This document shows, piece by piece, positions 7,334 through 36,432 of a stretch of DNA of 38,733 nucleotides; the stretch's first letter is position 1, and each line of letters begins with the position of its first letter. The stretch spans positions 1-38,733 of the forward strand of contig JAFDHD010000017.1 in assembly GCA_019308995.1 (NCBI GenBank), in the 5' to 3' direction. Under the pieces are notes generated by a model. That model was not told the origin of the DNA and did not search any database. It saw only the letters and a program-made list of their open reading frames with translations. The position numbers were made by a program, and so were the translations under genes. The DNA is from Deltaproteobacteria bacterium (GTDB lineage: Bacteria; Desulfobacterota; Desulfarculia; Adiutricales; JAFDHD01).

Positions 7334-8407
7334 ATGGAAATTGAAGTTAATCTTCTCCCGTCTGAATCACGCAAAGAAAAGCCAGGAAGCGATGATGAAC
7401 TGAGTTTTGGAGATACCTTCAGTGATCATATGCTGATGGTGGATTACAAGGAAGGCCAGGGCTGGCACAATGCCCGCATCGTGCCTTATGAGGATCTTCG
7501 ACTTGACCCGGCGGCGATGTCCATTCATTACGCCCAGTCCCTCTTCGAAGGCCTTAAGTGCTATCGGAGAAAGGACGGCGGCCTCCAGCTCTTCAGGCCA
7601 CGGGATAATTTCAAGCGCTTAAACCAGTCTGCCTCCCGGTTGTGCATGCCTGAGTTAGATGTCGAGTTCGGCCTTTCATCACTTAAGGAGCTGATTCGGG
7701 TTGAGCAGGACTGGGTGCCCCGAAGCCGCGGCGCGTCACTCTATCTAAGGCCGACCATGCTGGCCACCGAACCGCACCTCGGCGTTAGACCGGCCAGGGA
7801 ATACCTCTACTTTGTCATTGTCGGGCCGGTTGGGGCCTATTACAAGGAAGGATTTAATCCGGTCAGGATCTTTGTCTCTGAGAAATATGTACGGGCGGTC
7901 CGCGGAGGCGTGGGCGATATCAAGGCCTCGGGCAACTACGCGGCCAGCCTCTATGCCGCTAAAGAGGCACAGGAGAAAGGCTTTACCCAGATACTCTGGC
8001 TCGACGCCGTGGAGCGTAAGTATGTTGAAGAAGTGGGGACCTCGAACATGTTCTTCCTGATAGAGGACGAACTAATCACTCCACCCTTAACCGGGAGCAT
8101 CCTGTCAGGCATTACCCGCCTGACCGTCCTGGATCTGGCCCGGGAATGGGGCGCATACAATGTAGTGGAGCGGCAAGTCAGCATAGATGAGGTTATGGCC
8201 AAGGCAAAGGACGGGCGTTTGAAAGAAGCGTTTGCCTCAGGCACAGCCGTGGTCATCTCGCCGGTGAGCGAGGTTTTTTATAAAGGTGAGATGGTCCAGA
8301 TTGGTAACGGCCAGACCGGCCCGCTAGCTCGTAAACTCTTCGATGAAATCACGGCTATTCAATACGGTGGTAAGCAAGATACCCACGGCTGGATCGAAGA
8401 AATCTGA
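7334..8407 (+). CDS. ilvE: Branched-chain amino acid aminotransferase
   Basis: A class IV PLP-dependent aminotransferase that interconverts Leu, Ile and Val with their 2-oxo acids, using 2-oxoglutarate/glutamate; it acts in the cytoplasm. With the ATG at 7334 the protein has 357 residues, the usual length of the long (type II) BCAT group. Seen: SIHYAQSLFEGLKCYR (63-78), LYLRPTMLAT (137-146), and the PLP lysine K197 in GDIKASGNYAAS, followed by WLDAVERKYVEEVGTSNMFF. ATG 7334 is preferred over the in-frame TTG at 7322, which would sit directly on the GTGGAGG ribosome site (7316-7321). It is a single-gene unit ending at the hairpin terminator at 8419-8443. Confidence 0.96.
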   Translation: MEIEVNLLPSESRKEKPGSDDELSFGDTFSDHMLMVDYKEGQGWHNARIVPYEDLRLDPAAMSIHYAQSLFEGLKCYRRKDGGLQLFRPRDNFKRLNQSASRLCMPELDVEFGLSSLKELIRVEQDWVPRSRGASLYLRPTMLATEPHLGVRPAREYLYFVIVGPVGAYYKEGFNPVRIFVSEKYVRAVRGGVGDIKASGNYAASLYAAKEAQEKGFTQILWLDAVERKYVEEVGTSNMFFLIEDELITPPLTGSILSGITRLTVLDLAREWGAYNVVERQVSIDEVMAKAKDGRLKEAFASGTAVVISPVSEVFYKGEMVQIGNGQTGPLARKLFDEITAIQYGGKQDTHGWIEEI

Positions 8408-8418
8408 TGATGAATCAG

Positions 8419-8443
8419 GGGGAGTCTTTGATAAGAACTCCCC
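8419..8443. terminator. Bidirectional hairpin terminator between ilvE and the S24 repressor gene
   Basis: GGGGAGT (8419-8425) pairs with ACTCCCC (8437-8443). CTT/AAG extends the stem after a one-base bulge, leaving a TGAT loop. The plus strand continues with ATATTTCTCT. It lies between two convergent genes, so it can serve both. Confidence 0.75.
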
Positions 8444-8489
8444 ATATTTCTCTACATTATACCCCTAAAAATTTGCGAATAAACCTCAA

Positions 8490-9401
8490 TCAAAGGGTGA
8501 TAGATATAACCTTTTCCAGTAAGATCAGCTCGTCTTCATCCTTGACCATATCTCCATAATCAGGATTTAGGGAGCGCAAGATAATCTGATCATTACGAAA
8601 AAGGACCATCTTCACCCAGGCGTTATAATCCTGGTCCTTGAAAATGACATAATCACCGTGCCTCACTTCCTCCCGGCTCTCAGGTTTGACAAAAAGAGTG
8701 GCGCCATCTTTGAGGTAAGGGAACATGGAGTCTCCCCGAACCCGGACGGCATAAATCTTCTCGGCCAGCTTCGGGTCAATTCCAGGAGGCAGCTCCACCT
8801 TCTCCAATCCGTCTCCAGCTTCAAAACCCCCATCAGTCCACTGAAAAGGTTCGCCGGCACTGACATGAGAAATGACAGGGACAGTATAACGATAAGGCAG
8901 GGGACCCAGTAATAGATCAGAAGGGCTGGAAAGCGCTTCAGTCCAGAATTCATGGACTCGTTCCTCGATTTCCTTGACCAGGTTGCAATAAGGTTCTTTC
9001 TGGATCTGTTCAGGGTCGGCAATGATGATTTTAAGGCCGCGTTTAATGGCTTCCTCAACCTGAGCCGCCACCACGCTAGGGTGCAGCACCTCGTCAACCG
9101 GTCCGTTAATTTCACCCCGGGCTCTGGCTTGCGAGTAAGCCTTGAAAGCCTTTTCATAGAGGTTGATGACCTCATCGTCCTCGCTATTTCGCTCCTTGAG
9201 TGCCACCAGGAGGAAAAAGAAGGGGTCAAGTCCCAGGGCCACAGCCATTTTAAGCACGACCGAGTCTTTGGGGATTTTGCCAAAGTTTTCCATGTCTGCG
9301 ACATAAGTTCCAGTCACACCGGCCAGATGTCCGAGCTTTTTTTGCGAGAGGCTAAGCTCCATTCGTTTTCTTTTCACCACTTCTCCAAAGGTCTCAGTCA
9401 T
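8490..9401 (-). CDS. LexA/CI-type repressor: XRE helix-turn-helix plus S24 self-cleavage domain
   Basis: A 303-residue protein. Residues about 5-60 form an XRE-type helix-turn-helix (LSLSQKKLGHLAGVTGTYVADMEN). A linker of about 110 residues follows, longer than usual. The C-terminal S24 domain has an Ala182-Gly183 cleavage site in ISHVSAGEPF, catalytic Ser225 in VRGDSMFPYL and Lys264 in AWVKMV. All three elements of RecA-stimulated self-cleavage are therefore present, as in LexA and phage CI. It should bind DNA as a dimer and be inactivated on DNA damage (family knowledge; not shown here). The likely operator is the TACAACAA/TTGTTGTA palindrome at 9495-9510, with a half site over its own promoter at 9439-9446. 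ATG 9401 has AGAGG upstream. Confidence 0.93.
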   Translation of the reverse strand: MTETFGEVVKRKRMELSLSQKKLGHLAGVTGTYVADMENFGKIPKDSVVLKMAVALGLDPFFFLLVALKERNSEDDEVINLYEKAFKAYSQARARGEINGPVDEVLHPSVVAAQVEEAIKRGLKIIIADPEQIQKEPYCNLVKEIEERVHEFWTEALSSPSDLLLGPLPYRYTVPVISHVSAGEPFQWTDGGFEAGDGLEKVELPPGIDPKLAEKIYAVRVRGDSMFPYLKDGATLFVKPESREEVRHGDYVIFKDQDYNAWVKMVLFRNDQIILRSLNPDYGDMVKDEDELILLEKVISITL

Positions 9402-9430
9402 TGGTGTCCTCTTGTTTTCATTTTTTAGTT

Positions 9431-9460
9431 ATATTTTATACAACAAACAGCTATTTGCAA
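9431..9460 (-). promoter_or_regulatory. Probable promoter of the repressor gene with operator half site
   Basis: On the minus strand, TTGCAA (9460-9455) is followed after 16 bases by TAAAAT as the -10. The half site TTGTTGTA (9446-9439, minus strand), identical to one arm of the palindrome at 9495-9510, touches the -10. Binding there would allow autorepression. The box match is moderate. Confidence 0.5.
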
Positions 9461-9489
9461 GGAAAAAAGGAATTATATGAAAAAAAAGG

Positions 9490-9519
9490 TTGACTACAAC
9501 AATTGTTGTATCTTATATT
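9490..9519 (+). promoter_or_regulatory. Rightward sigma70-type promoter with operator in the spacer
   Basis: TTGACT (9490-9495) and TATATT (9514-9519) are separated by 18 bases; read as TTATAT (9513-9518) the spacer is 17. The spacer is almost exactly filled by the perfect palindrome at 9495-9510, so a bound repressor would block RNA polymerase directly. The expected transcript start is near 9526. The next recognised gene is 400 bases downstream. Confidence 0.7.
9495..9510. promoter_or_regulatory. Operator palindrome TACAACAATTGTTGTA
   Basis: A perfect 16-base palindrome with arms TACAACAA/TTGTTGTA. One arm is repeated exactly at 9439-9446, next to the repressor promoter, and a related sequence (GACAACAA, then TTGTT) occurs at 9678-9694. 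The position, 94 bases before the S24 repressor start and inside the rightward promoter, makes it the best candidate binding site of that repressor. Confidence 0.75.
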
Positions 9520-9525
9520 TATAAA

Positions 9526-9670
9526 GGGAGGTTTGGATAGGAAAGGGTTAAAGTGAGGAAATAGGGCCGCGACCATTCTAAGAAGTTAATTATACTTATT
9601 AAATGGAATTCTTAGCAGAATATCACCTGGACTCTCTGGGCTCTTCAGACGGCCCGGTTCTAATTTTTAT
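9526..9670 (+). ncRNA. Possible short terminated RNA downstream of the operator-promoter
   Basis: If transcription starts near 9526, the next hairpin with a T-run is CTGGGC/GCCCGG (9636-9641 with 9652-9657), followed by TTCTAATTTTTAT, giving an RNA of about 140 bases. Inside it CTAAGAA (9578-9584) pairs with TTCTTAG (9609-9615). No family is recognised. It could equally be an attenuated leader of the nuclease-like gene. Both ends are predicted, not observed. Confidence 0.3.
9636..9670 (+). terminator. Hairpin plus T-run, terminator or attenuator
   Basis: CTGGGC (9636-9641) and GCCCGG (9652-9657) form a six-pair stem with one G-T pair, followed at 9658-9670 by TTCTAATTTTTAT. It lies about 110 bases after the predicted start of the operator-controlled transcript and well before the nuclease-like gene. 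Confidence 0.4.
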
Positions 9671-9853
9671 CAGTCCTGACAACAACAAGTTGTTTGAAAA
9701 AAACCAGCATAGCTGCTTGTTTTTATAAATAAGGACCTGGATGCAAACGAAACAGGGCGTATGTCATTTTGTTTATTTCAAATTAAGCAATTAATTGTTT
9801 GTTTTTAATGGTTCCCTGGTAAACGCATCTAGAAAGATAAACAGGTCGTCAGC

Positions 9854-9882
9854 TTGCTGTTAACTGATTGAATTCTTAATAA
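9854..9882 (+). promoter_or_regulatory. Possible proximal promoter of the nuclease-like gene
   Basis: TTGCTG (9854-9859), a 17-base spacer and TAATAA (9877-9882), 48 bases before the ATG at 9930. It would let the gene be transcribed independently of the operator-promoter at 9490. No TACAACAA arm is seen here. Confidence 0.4.
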
Positions 9883-9929
9883 TATTACTCATCTCAAGAC
9901 ATGAGCGAAATGAAGTTAGGAGACTAGCC

Positions 9930-10958
9930 ATGCTGCTTTTTAAAGGTCCATTTCGGGTAAATTCACTTTCCGCTTTTCTTAAGTGCCCTCGCGCCTTTTA
10001 TTTCAAGCACGTTATGGGTCTTGGCCAGGACCGAATTAATCTGAATTTGCTGGCCGGTCATGCGGCGCGGGCAGCCGTTAACCGCGCTCACCGTGAAAAG
10101 AACTGGGACGAGGATGAAATTTATGAGATTTTTTTAGGTGTCTTTGAAAAGGAGAAGGCCGGTCAAAAGGCCGAAATCCATGGCGCGGTGGACCTGGATG
10201 AGTACCGTGTCATGTTAAGGGCTTATGCCTGCCAGCCTTATAATCGTGAAGCCAGGGTCCTGGCATTGGATTCCAGGTTTTATTTTGAGATCAAACCAGC
10301 GCGCACAACTTATCATTTTGAAGGAAGGATTGACCAGCTTCTTCAGGTTGAAACCGATCTGCTGAGAGCTGAATTTCCCGATGTTTTCAAGTCTGTAAAG
10401 AAGTCCTCCATCATCCTTCACCGGTGTATTAAATTCGGCCAGCGCAGACAGACCAGTCCCTTTGAACTGGCTCTGAATATCCAGCTCGACATCCTTGCTC
10501 TGGCCTTAAAAACCGGGATCTTTAATTATCCTTTAGGCGCCATTGATCGCAGGTCTTATCAGACACCGTATTTCTGGAATATTATCCCTGATTTTCATGC
10601 AGTTTATTTCCTCAGAGATCATATCCCCTACAAGGATGACGGCGGCAGTTACCTGAAAGATGAATCGGGAAACTTCATACCCTGCGATCTTGTTTCAGAG
10701 CCCTGCCTTTTAGGCAAGAAGCAGCAGCCCTGTAAAGGCAAGCGAACTTACTGCACCAAACAGCCTCGAGGTCCGGGCATGTTTTTCACTACCCGCTCCG
10801 AGACCAGAACGCACACCATCCCCAGGGAACTCATGTCGGTCTGCGCGGCCATTCGCATGGGCCATTATCCGCGCCAACCCGGAGAACTCTGCTCTAACTA
10901 CTGTGAATTTCGCTTTACCTGCGAAACAGAAGTCCGTTCGGATGTTGAGGCGGCTTGA
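9930..10958 (+). CDS. PD-(D/E)XK nuclease-fold protein (Cas4/AddB/RecB-like) with two cysteine clusters
   Basis: A 342-residue protein. The N-terminus, FLKCPRAFYFKHV (C19), matches the opening Cys motif of iron-sulfur RecB-type nucleases. It pairs in the usual way with a C-terminal C321-x3-C325-x5-C331 (CSNYCEFRFTC), which would hold a 4Fe-4S cluster. EGRIDQLL (131-138) supplies the motif II aspartate D135. Q185-L is like motif IV. The normal D/E-x-K of motif III reads C166-I-K168, so the lysine is kept but the acid is missing. A second Cys group, C252, C259, C268, C275, lies between and is not standard. ATG has AGGAG at good spacing. Family members are 5' or 3' exonucleases in recombination, CRISPR or phage systems; activity here is uncertain because of motif III. 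Confidence 0.75.
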   Translation: MLLFKGPFRVNSLSAFLKCPRAFYFKHVMGLGQDRINLNLLAGHAARAAVNRAHREKNWDEDEIYEIFLGVFEKEKAGQKAEIHGAVDLDEYRVMLRAYACQPYNREARVLALDSRFYFEIKPARTTYHFEGRIDQLLQVETDLLRAEFPDVFKSVKKSSIILHRCIKFGQRRQTSPFELALNIQLDILALALKTGIFNYPLGAIDRRSYQTPYFWNIIPDFHAVYFLRDHIPYKDDGGSYLKDESGNFIPCDLVSEPCLLGKKQQPCKGKRTYCTKQPRGPGMFFTTRSETRTHTIPRELMSVCAAIRMGHYPRQPGELCSNYCEFRFTCETEVRSDVEAA

Positions 10959-11404: not shown

Positions 11405-11608
11405 ATGGTAGTCATTAATGTTGAAGTGGCGCGGGGATGGAAGGCGATCGCACGAATGATCGGAGGATCAGTTTCCACGGCGCAGCGTCTTTACCGAAGG
11501 CAGGGGCTGCCAGTGGTCTATGAAGGTCAGTCGCCTACCATGGATACCAAGAGTTATTTGGAGTGGCGCGAAAATTTGGGCAGACATAAAGTTAAGAATT
11601 TGGATTGA
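11405..11608 (+). CDS. Small helix-turn-helix DNA-binding protein
   Basis: A 67-residue protein with a good ribosome site (AAAGGAGAACATCT before ATG). The helix-turn-helix spans about residues 11-38 (GWKAIARMIGGSVSTAQRLY, then RRQGLPV). The sequence GLPV after the recognition helix and a late K-S-Y-L-E-W-R are features shared with MerR/excisionase-like and phage-associated small HTH proteins. It could be a transcription regulator, an excisionase-type factor or a DNA-end recognition protein. It follows the nuclease-like gene on the same strand but with 446 bases between, so co-transcription is doubtful. It ends at the shared hairpin at 11629-11653. Confidence 0.7.
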   Translation: MVVINVEVARGWKAIARMIGGSVSTAQRLYRRQGLPVVYEGQSPTMDTKSYLEWRENLGRHKVKNLD

Positions 11609-30929: not shown

Positions 30930-31325
30930 ATGCCCAGGACAAACAAAATCACCGCAGAAAAGGTAATGGAAGCCATCAAGGACAGCCTCGGTCTCAGGAG
31001 TGTTATCGCCTCAAAACTGGGCATACAAATTTGCTTAGTTGACCGATATCTCGAACGCTATGCCTCAGCCGCCAGGGTTTACGGGGAGGAGTGCAATCGG
31101 GTCAAGGATATGATCGAGGCGGAGATTATCCATAAATGTCAGGAAGGGGACCCCCGGATGCTTATTTTTTACGCCAAGACGAAGATGAAAGAGCGCGGCT
31201 ATGTTGAAAGGGCCGAGATTACCGGGGCTGAAGGCGATTCTCTGCGGCCTGAGTCTCATCTAGAGTTGGATTTATCCATGTTGACCGATGAACAGCTTCG
31301 GCTTTTGGTCGGTGAGGAAAAGTAG
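30930..31325 (+). CDS. Phage terminase small subunit
   Basis: A 131-residue protein. The N-terminal half has a helix-turn-helix (VIASKLGIQICLVDRYLERY) and the middle the phrase LIFYAKTKMKERGYVERAEITG, strongly typical of small terminases. It would recognise the packaging site on phage DNA and hand it to the large subunit encoded directly after it; the stop TAG overlaps the next GTG start by one base. Direct repeats 70-130 bases upstream could be its binding site. ATG at 30930; the ribosome site is weak. Confidence 0.82.
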   Translation: MPRTNKITAEKVMEAIKDSLGLRSVIASKLGIQICLVDRYLERYASAARVYGEECNRVKDMIEAEIIHKCQEGDPRMLIFYAKTKMKERGYVERAEITGAEGDSLRPESHLELDLSMLTDEQLRLLVGEEK

Positions 31326-32758
31326 TGATTCCAGCCGTGGCCCAATCAGAATTACCATCCAAATACAGGGGCATCCCCAAAGAAGCCATTTTACTGGACG
31401 TTCGCCGGGAGCTAGCCCGCCGACACGTCTTTGACCTCACCACCTATACCTTCCCGGGTTACCGTCCCGCCCCTCACAACCGGCTGCTTTGCCAGTATCT
31501 GGACCAATGGGTTTCGGGTGAGATCACTCGCCTCATGGTTTTTATGCCCCCCAGGCATGGCAAATCCGAGCTGGTTAGCCGCAGGCTCCCGGCGTATATA
31601 CTGGGGCGGTATCCTTCGGCTCAGGTCCTGGCTGTATCGTATGGCCAGGGCCTGGCCAACTCCCTCTCCCGCGAAACTAAGGCCATCCTGACCAGTCGTA
31701 AGTACCAGGAGGTATTTCCCGGGGTCAGGCTGAGCCGTACACCTAACGCCGTGGATGAATGGAAAACGACCGGCCACGGGGTATACAAGTGTGCCGGGGT
31801 CAGGGGCGGCATCACCGGCCGGGGATTTGACTTCGGCATTATTGACGACCCGGTCAAGAATCGCATGGAGGCCGAATCTGAGACGATCAGGCAGGCCGTC
31901 TGGGACTGGTACACCTCCACGTTCTATACCCGGCAGCAGCCAGGAGCGCGAATATTGATCACCCAGACCAGGTGGCATGAGGATGACCTGTCAGGCCGGT
32001 TGGTAAAGGCGCAGCAAGAAGACCCATACGCCGACACCTGGACCGTCCTTCAGCTGCCAGCCATGGCCGAGGCAAATGATCCGCTCGGTCGGCTCGTGGG
32101 CGAGCCGCTCTGGCCGCAAAGATTCCCTAAAGAAAAACTCGTGACCGTCAAGGCCAATATCGGAAGCTATGACTGGCAGGCCCTGTACCAGCAGCGTCCG
32201 GCGCCGCCGGGTGGTTCGAAGATCAAGCCGAGCTGGTTCAAGATCAGGGATAAGGCGCCGGAAGGGCTTTCCTGGGTGCGGTACTGGGACCTGGCTGTTT
32301 CAGCCAAAAAGACAGCCGACTTTACCGCCTCCGCTGCTTTAGCCATGAGCGATGACGGCGACGTCTTTATTCGAGATATGATTCGAGGTCAGTGGATCTG
32401 GCCGGAAACGCGCAAAATCATGGTTCTAACAGCCAGGACGGAAGAGATACCCATCGGCATAGAGTCTGCTGGACAGCAGCAGGGGTTCGTGGACGAACTC
32501 ACGCGGGACCCGGATCTGGCGGCCTTTTCCATTAAAGGGGTGCGTCCGATGGCGGACAAGCTGACCAGGGCCTTGCCTTGGATCGCCCGGGCCGAGGCTG
32601 GTCAGGTGTATTTGATCCGGGGATCGTGGGTCACGGAATTCTTAGGCGAATGCGCCAGGTTCACCGGGAAAAACGATGCCCAGGATGACCAGATTGACTG
32701 CGTTTCCGGGGCATATCAAATGGCCGCCACAAGCGGACCAAAGATGTTTTGGATTTAA
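31325..32758 (+). CDS. terL: Phage terminase large subunit
   Basis: A 477-residue packaging motor with ATPase and nuclease domains. Walker A is PPRHGKSE (75-82), Walker B GIIDDP (171-176), preceded by GGITGRGFDF. The nuclease domain shows the RNase H-like VRYWDLAVSAKKTADFTA and, near the end, DDQIDCVSGAY with acidic residues. The gene begins with GTG at 31325, overlapping the small-subunit stop, with GAGG upstream. The protein cuts concatemeric phage DNA and pumps it into proheads through the portal encoded next. Confidence 0.94.
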   Translation: MIPAVAQSELPSKYRGIPKEAILLDVRRELARRHVFDLTTYTFPGYRPAPHNRLLCQYLDQWVSGEITRLMVFMPPRHGKSELVSRRLPAYILGRYPSAQVLAVSYGQGLANSLSRETKAILTSRKYQEVFPGVRLSRTPNAVDEWKTTGHGVYKCAGVRGGITGRGFDFGIIDDPVKNRMEAESETIRQAVWDWYTSTFYTRQQPGARILITQTRWHEDDLSGRLVKAQQEDPYADTWTVLQLPAMAEANDPLGRLVGEPLWPQRFPKEKLVTVKANIGSYDWQALYQQRPAPPGGSKIKPSWFKIRDKAPEGLSWVRYWDLAVSAKKTADFTASAALAMSDDGDVFIRDMIRGQWIWPETRKIMVLTARTEEIPIGIESAGQQQGFVDELTRDPDLAAFSIKGVRPMADKLTRALPWIARAEAGQVYLIRGSWVTEFLGECARFTGKNDAQDDQIDCVSGAYQMAATSGPKMFWI

Positions 32759-35202: not shown

Positions 35203-36432
35203 ATGACGGAAGTTTCTATTGAACAAGTTGAGACGATTGTCGCTGAAGCCTTGAAGCGGGCGGGCGAACCCAGCCGGGAAGAGTTGAAAGCCACTGTGGA
35301 GAGCCTTCTTGCTTCCCTTAAGAAGGCTGACCGCACGGACTTCAGGCCTGGGGCAGAGGAAAACGAAACTGGAAAGGGAGAAAGGCCGGGTCAGTTCAAG
35401 TTTTTTGGTGAACAGCTTATGGCCGTGGTCAAGGCTGGCAAACCCGGCGGCGCGGTGGATCCCAGGCTGACAACCAAGGCAGCTTCGGGACTCGGTGAAA
35501 ATGTACCTTCGGACGGCGGCTTTTTGATTCAGGAAGGTTTCGTTTCCGAGCTGCTGAGGCGAACCTATGAAACAGGCGTGATTGCGGCCCGCTGCCGGCG
35601 CATTCCCATCAGTTCCAATTCCAACGCCCTAAAAATTAATACCGTTGCCGAGACCAGCCGTGCCAACGGTTCGCGTTGGGGCGGCGTTGAGGCTTTCTGG
35701 GCGGGTGAGGCCGATGAGTATACGGCCAGCAAGCCAAAGTTTCGCCAGATGCGCCTCGAACTAGGCAAGCTCACCGGCCTCTGCTATGCCACGGATGAAC
35801 TTCTTGATGACGCCACCGCGCTGGAGGCGGTGATCAGGCTGGCGTTCAGCGAGGAATTCGGTTTTAAGATTGACGACGCCATTATCCACGGTCTTGGTTC
35901 GGACCAGCCGCTGGGAATAATGAATTCTGACTGTCTGATTACCGTGGACGCTGAAAGCGAGCAGGGGGCGAACACCGTTGAGTTTAAAAATATCGTCAAC
36001 ATGTGGGCTCGTATGTGGGGCAGGTCGAGACCAAACGCCGTCTGGCTGATCAATCAGGACATCGAGCCGCAGCTCTACACCATGACCATGACGGTGGGCC
36101 AGGGCGGCGTGGCCGTTTATCTTCCCACCGGCGGCTTGAACGACAGCCCTTACAGCCAGCTTCTCGGTCGGCCTGTCATCCCGGTTGAATACTGCGAGAG
36201 TCTGGGTTCTAAAGGAGACATTATCCTGGCCGATTTCAGCCAGTACCTCCTTGTGGATAAGGGCGGGGTGGACTCGGCCCGAAGCATTCACGTGCGCTTC
36301 GTCTATGATGAAACCACCTTCAGGTTCACCTATCGCCTGGACGGCCAGACTATCTGGGAGGCGCCGCTGACGCCTCACAAGGGCGGAAGCACCCTGAGTC
36401 CCTTTGTAACTTTAGCTGCCAGAGAATCATAA
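35203..36432 (+). CDS. HK97-type phage major capsid protein
   Basis: A 409-residue shell protein. The first 90 residues are charged and helix-rich, resembling the delta-domain cleaved by the prohead protease. The HK97 fold then starts with PSDGGFLIQEGFVSELLRR (102-120), followed by MRLELGKLTGLCYATDELLDD and QPLGIM. The ribosome site AAAGGAGGAG is very strong, as expected for the most abundant virion protein. Confidence 0.95.
   Translation: MTEVSIEQVETIVAEALKRAGEPSREELKATVESLLASLKKADRTDFRPGAEENETGKGERPGQFKFFGEQLMAVVKAGKPGGAVDPRLTTKAASGLGENVPSDGGFLIQEGFVSELLRRTYETGVIAARCRRIPISSNSNALKINTVAETSRANGSRWGGVEAFWAGEADEYTASKPKFRQMRLELGKLTGLCYATDELLDDATALEAVIRLAFSEEFGFKIDDAIIHGLGSDQPLGIMNSDCLITVDAESEQGANTVEFKNIVNMWARMWGRSRPNAVWLINQDIEPQLYTMTMTVGQGGVAVYLPTGGLNDSPYSQLLGRPVIPVEYCESLGSKGDIILADFSQYLLVDKGGVDSARSIHVRFVYDETTFRFTYRLDGQTIWEAPLTPHKGGSTLSPFVTLAARES

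Follow-up and report, generated by a model that had tools for sequence, protein, structure and literature searches.

There appears to be a self-contained divergent switch in the window, that is, the whole stretch of 38,733 nt analysed here. It consists of an S24 repressor encoded on the - strand and a perfect palindrome, O1, in the promoter of a rightward nuclease-fold gene, which the repressor would control and which DNA damage would induce. The probability of this reading, made from sequence comparisons, is put at roughly three in four. The switch is probably a real and functional one, of a kind that is already known.

The palindrome and the rightward promoter

The predicted operator O1, TACAACAATTGTTGTA (9495-9510, without strand), is an exact palindrome with arms of 8 and a spacer of 0. 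As the earlier note had claimed, and as re-reading of the window confirmed, it lies between TTGACT (-35, 9490-9495) and TATATT (-10, 9514-9519), which are 18 bases apart, and the last base of the -35 hexamer is the first T of the palindrome. This promoter (9490-9519, + strand) scores 10/12 in a consensus scan, is the sole σ70-like promoter found by that scan on the + strand in 8300-10100, and has counterparts of the same architecture at homologous loci. The palindrome is likewise the sole perfect one with arms of at least 8 in the 38.7 kb window. Among dinucleotide shuffles of the 528 bp intergenic region, 1.6% contain a perfect palindrome with arms of at least 8, and 2 of 3000 have one inside a -35/-10 spacer. 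In the 3.78 Mb host genome there is no second TACAACAATTGTTGTA site at up to 2 mismatches.

The word is present in 54 stretches of viral contigs. It was rejected as a widespread phage operator, since these matches are nearly all within genes, reading Thr-Thr-Ile-Val-Val. Also set aside were the one-mismatch matches in genome G084, which are coding, and that in G086, which is solitary and 5' of an unrelated gene. The viral contig IMGVR_UViG_2681813503_000001 carries two exact copies between genes (L050 2706-2721 and L056 4046-4061), one of them directly 5' of a 72 aa Cro-like HTH gene, and an unrelated regulator may use the word there. Within the window, a weak operator-like repeat, AACAACAAGTTGTT (9681-9694, without strand, arms 6, spacer 2), has more than 3 mismatches to O1 and may be due to chance.

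The S24 repressor

The repressor gene (8490-9401, - strand) encodes 303 aa, with a Cro/CI-type HTH at about residues 5-61 and a LexA/CI-type S24 autoprotease domain at about 173-302. It matches HTH_3 and Peptidase_S24 in Pfam and a transcriptional repressor in PHROG, and alignment places the cleavage site at A182-G183 and the Ser/Lys dyad at S225 and K264. In the AlphaFold model both domains are fair to good and the linker is poor. By Foldseek, the C-terminal domain matches LexA and lambda CI, RecA-bound structures among them, and the HTH matches the P22 c2 and 434 repressors. Against phage and plasmid records, only the S24 domains of phage repressors were matched, at about 26-32% identity.

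The possibility that this protein is itself LexA was rejected, as it scores 21.7 bits against TIGR00498, far below the cut-off of 110.95 and through the S24 domain alone, has a CI-type HTH, and is accompanied in the host genome by a separate lexA gene, on another contig, whose product scores 163.7 bits. O1 was similarly rejected as an operator of the LexA regulon, since the genome has no second copy of the word at up to 2 mismatches and none lies upstream of lexA. The earlier statement that the word is not a LexA box is thus borne out, the host's own LexA being a different gene.

That one operator arm recurs at the repressor's own promoter also proved correct: TACAACAA is found as an exact match at 9439-9446 (without strand), within the spacer of the best candidate promoter for the repressor, TTGCAA N16 TAAAAT (9433-9460, - strand), which scores 9/12 in the consensus scan and by itself is no better than chance. 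The probability of such an arm turning up again in the intergenic region is 0.024, and no full second operator was found at this promoter. Autoregulation of the repressor through this possible half-site is therefore weakly suggested. Where the earlier note had proposed a self-consistent switch, in which the repressor controls both itself and a rightward transcript, the part that stands is the local switch, whose predicted operator lies in the promoter of the rightward transcript. That the repressor also controls itself is weakly supported, with one half-site at P of about 0.024 and with the extra operators of the relatives placed on the nuclease side.

The nuclease-fold gene, the small HTH gene, and the leader

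The rightward gene (9930-10958, + strand) encodes a PD-(D/E)XK/Cas4-like protein of 342 aa with many conserved Cys. It scores 41.9 bits against PDDEXK_1 (PF12705), where the gathering score is 22, and there is a weak match to Cas4; all 7 family members match the PF12705 profile. Neither the canonical catalytic Asp nor the (D/E)xK is kept across the 7 aligned relatives: the Asp column varies between D, E, Q, and G, and an invariant His-Arg takes the place of the (D/E)xK. The family has an N-terminal Cys-Pro motif, a C-terminal Cys cluster, an extra Cys-rich insert, and a PD[LF]HA[VI]Y motif. The fold model has a mean pLDDT of 48, which is too poor for a fold search or for placing an alternative site, and a profile search of solved structures gave no convincing match. 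No close homologue of this protein is present among phage or plasmid records.

A small HTH-like protein of 67 aa (11405-11608, + strand) is encoded next and is the third gene of the same module, given its presence in the sister species and the similar proteins that come after the nuclease-like gene at loci L078 and L079. The earlier note had recognised neither the nuclease fold nor the small HTH gene. Between the window and the sister species, dN/dS is well below 1 for the nuclease-like gene, where dS is saturated, and for the HTH gene; between L078 and L079 it is well below 1 for all three genes, which indicates that these genes are maintained by purifying selection.

The leader that precedes the nuclease-like gene measures about 400 bases and has no match to a known RNA in Rfam. 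It includes an open frame of 41 codons (9603-9728), which has no strong ribosome-binding site and may be due to chance. A second palindrome, AAGCAATTAATTGTTT (9785-9800, without strand), has a perfect version in the sister species, AAACAATTAATTGTTT, and a half-site spacing unlike that of O1.

The sister species

In genome G001, of the same genus, the nuclease-like gene is 68% identical and the small HTH gene 92%, and the chromosomal gene that comes next is the one found in the window. This indicates that the nuclease side of the locus has been inherited within the genus rather than inserted recently. The leaders of the window and G001 are otherwise diverged, and the best match between them is AAACAATTAATTGTTT, to which the window at 9785-9800 has one mismatch. 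The G001 contig starts inside the intergenic region, short of the position of O1, and the repressor was not found in this assembly.

Homologous loci elsewhere in the phylum

Neither 98 close relatives nor 395 genomes of the phylum yielded an orthologue with the same HTH. The decisive evidence for the switch comes from three loci (L077, L078, and L079) of another family, where homologous S24 and nuclease-like genes are present in the same divergent order; these loci are close relatives of one another and come from two genomes of a single genus. The rightward promoter at all three is TTGACACACACAAATTTGTGTGTATAAT, with the layout TTGACA[CACACAAATTTGTGTG]TATAAT, in which a perfect 18 bp palindrome lies between the -35 and the -10. 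The relatives have further operator copies on the nuclease side, the second about 140 bp downstream and the third directly 5' of the ribosome-binding site. When the three leaders are aligned, the operator copies are invariant (28/28 columns with the promoter hexamers included, 16/16, and 18/18), while 52% of the remaining leader columns are. A fourth invariant island, ATTATATTATAA, near alignment column 289, is not explained by the operators. In genome G067 a frame shift or stop interrupts the nuclease-like gene (L077, 3317-4389), and the operators there are intact.

The operator word of the relatives, at up to 2 mismatches, is confined within their genomes to these loci, and their repressors keep the A-G cleavage site and the catalytic Ser and Lys. 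The word differs between the lineages together with the repressor HTH; the frame common to both words is ACA-N2-AATT-N2-TGT. The earlier note had named a lack of conservation upstream of orthologues as grounds for refutation. The exact word is indeed not conserved in relatives, but this objection is answered by the equivalent palindrome that occupies the corresponding promoter spacer of the homologous gene pair at all three loci. Across the 395 genomes, the pattern TTGAC-N1..3-ACANNAATTNNTGT-N1..4-TATNNT has 4 matches, the window and the three relative loci, which were bound to match as the pattern was drawn from them, so that the informative part is the absence of others; the reversed control has 0 matches. 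Likewise, a scan for promoters with palindromes in about 877 kb of compared loci finds only these loci and the viral loci that had been chosen for the word itself.

Phage links and genomic setting

On a Desulforudis MAG contig that is also listed as viral, relatives of the S24 domain (66% over the domain) and of the nuclease-like gene (54%) are encoded alongside integrase, CII-like, and excisionase-like proteins. The presence of this pair beside phage regulators makes a phage regulator/recombination region the likely source of the module, which now seems to be retained on the chromosome by purifying selection. The neighbours of the divergent pair in the window are genes for an aminotransferase and a solute-binding protein, with no integrase or phage structural gene adjoining. 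A CI switch within an intact prophage was accordingly rejected, as the phage genes are some 20 kb away, and a tRNA-linked insertion was rejected, as there is no tRNA in the window. The phage genes in question, for a terminase large subunit (31325-32758) and an HK97-type capsid protein (35203-36432), are part of a prophage at the contig end.

Two further observations concern the wider setting. The phage-like Desulforudis contig (L010) has 3-4 solitary CRISPR-repeat-like units (GTCGCC...GGCGTGGATTGAAAC) among its regulator genes, at about 2600, 4626, 5243, and 6414, and these may belong with the single-repeat elements that have been proposed to act as anti-CRISPR RNAs. Elsewhere in the genome that carries the window, what is left of another S24 domain of this type, now broken (L083, on G000:C143, 2958-3152), lies near a DNA methyltransferase gene and a restriction-endonuclease-like gene.

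Proposed mechanism and alternatives

From what is known of the protein families, a dimer of the S24 protein would bind O1 with its CI-type HTH. As O1 takes up the spacer between the -35 and the -10, the bound dimer would sterically block RNA polymerase at the rightward promoter, keeping the nuclease-fold gene, and perhaps the small HTH gene, off. With DNA damage, RecA filaments would be expected to stimulate self-cleavage of the repressor at A182-G183 by the S225/K264 dyad, and the nuclease-fold operon would be turned on.

For the inducing signal another account can be framed. The switch may be real and the S24 domain serve mainly for dimerisation, with derepression by an antirepressor or partner such as the small HTH protein. 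That protein is a conserved part of the module, and the conserved palindrome at 9785-9800, with its different spacing, suggests a second binder. However, the A-G site, the Ser, and the Lys are conserved in the homologous repressors, as RecA-dependent self-cleavage would lead one to expect, and a signal other than damage is considered rather unlikely.

It is very unlikely that O1 belongs to another regulator, either LexA or the small HTH protein, and that the S24 protein binds elsewhere. There is indeed a separate LexA encoded in the genome, but the O1 word is unlike a LexA box, has no other copy there, and is absent upstream of lexA, and in the relatives, where the corresponding word is likewise limited to this locus, a different word goes with a different HTH. 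More improbable again is that the palindrome arose by chance in an intergenic region rich in A+T. The word itself is not rare, as its 54 viral occurrences show, but these lie nearly all inside genes, the combination of promoter and palindrome is seen in only 2 of 3000 shuffles, and homologous loci have the same layout. A damage-induced switch acting through the S24 repressor and O1 is the preferred reading.

Comparison with known systems

The nearest described parallel is FddR of Francisella, a phage S24 repressor that has been co-opted and acts in self-contained divergent units, with the palindromic site GTG-N11-CAC (PMC13148647). The locus in the window is similar in its phage-type S24 repressor, its divergent unit, the palindrome in the shared promoter region, and the small local regulon, and differs in that the word is TACAACAATTGTTGTA, the target has a nuclease fold, a canonical LexA is retained, and autoregulation is weakly indicated (PMC13148647). 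With an S24/HTH regulator whose cleavage site and Ser/Lys dyad are intact, a divergent partner conserved in relatives, a palindrome in the promoter region, and a predicted local regulon, it would belong to an FddR-like functional class. The CI/C2 switches of lambda, P22, and 434 share the CI-type HTH, the S24 domain, and the divergent promoters, whereas the pair in the window has no Cro-like gene, one full operator rather than a tandem set, and a downstream gene order common to the chromosome of the sister species. The LexA/SOS system shares the S24 fold, the cleavage site, the dyad, and an expected response to damage, but LexA has a winged helix where this repressor has a CI-type HTH, and its operators precede several SOS genes where this one is unique. 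The Cas4/AddB-like Fe-S PD-(D/E)XK nucleases resemble the target in the PF12705 match of all members, the N-terminal Cys-Pro, and the C-terminal Cys cluster; the family described here differs in having an invariant His-Arg for the catalytic residues, the added Cys-rich insert, and the PD[LF]HA[VI]Y motif. A limited search of the open-access literature found no description of this module.

Tentatively, and less probably than not, the locus could be seen as a conserved, phage-derived module of three genes kept on chromosomes beside a working LexA, in which damage or phage attack would lead a self-cleaving repressor to free a small DNA-binding protein and a catalytically altered nuclease-fold effector rich in Cys, using lineage-specific words within the ACA-N2-AATT-N2-TGT frame. 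Independently of that reading, the repressor and its predicted operator form a dedicated pair whose regulon is apparently a single locus, and both protein and word have changed in step between lineages. This offers a compact system in which to study host takeover of a phage-type repressor, and it places a nuclease-fold family that is still uncharacterised behind an inducible promoter open to testing.
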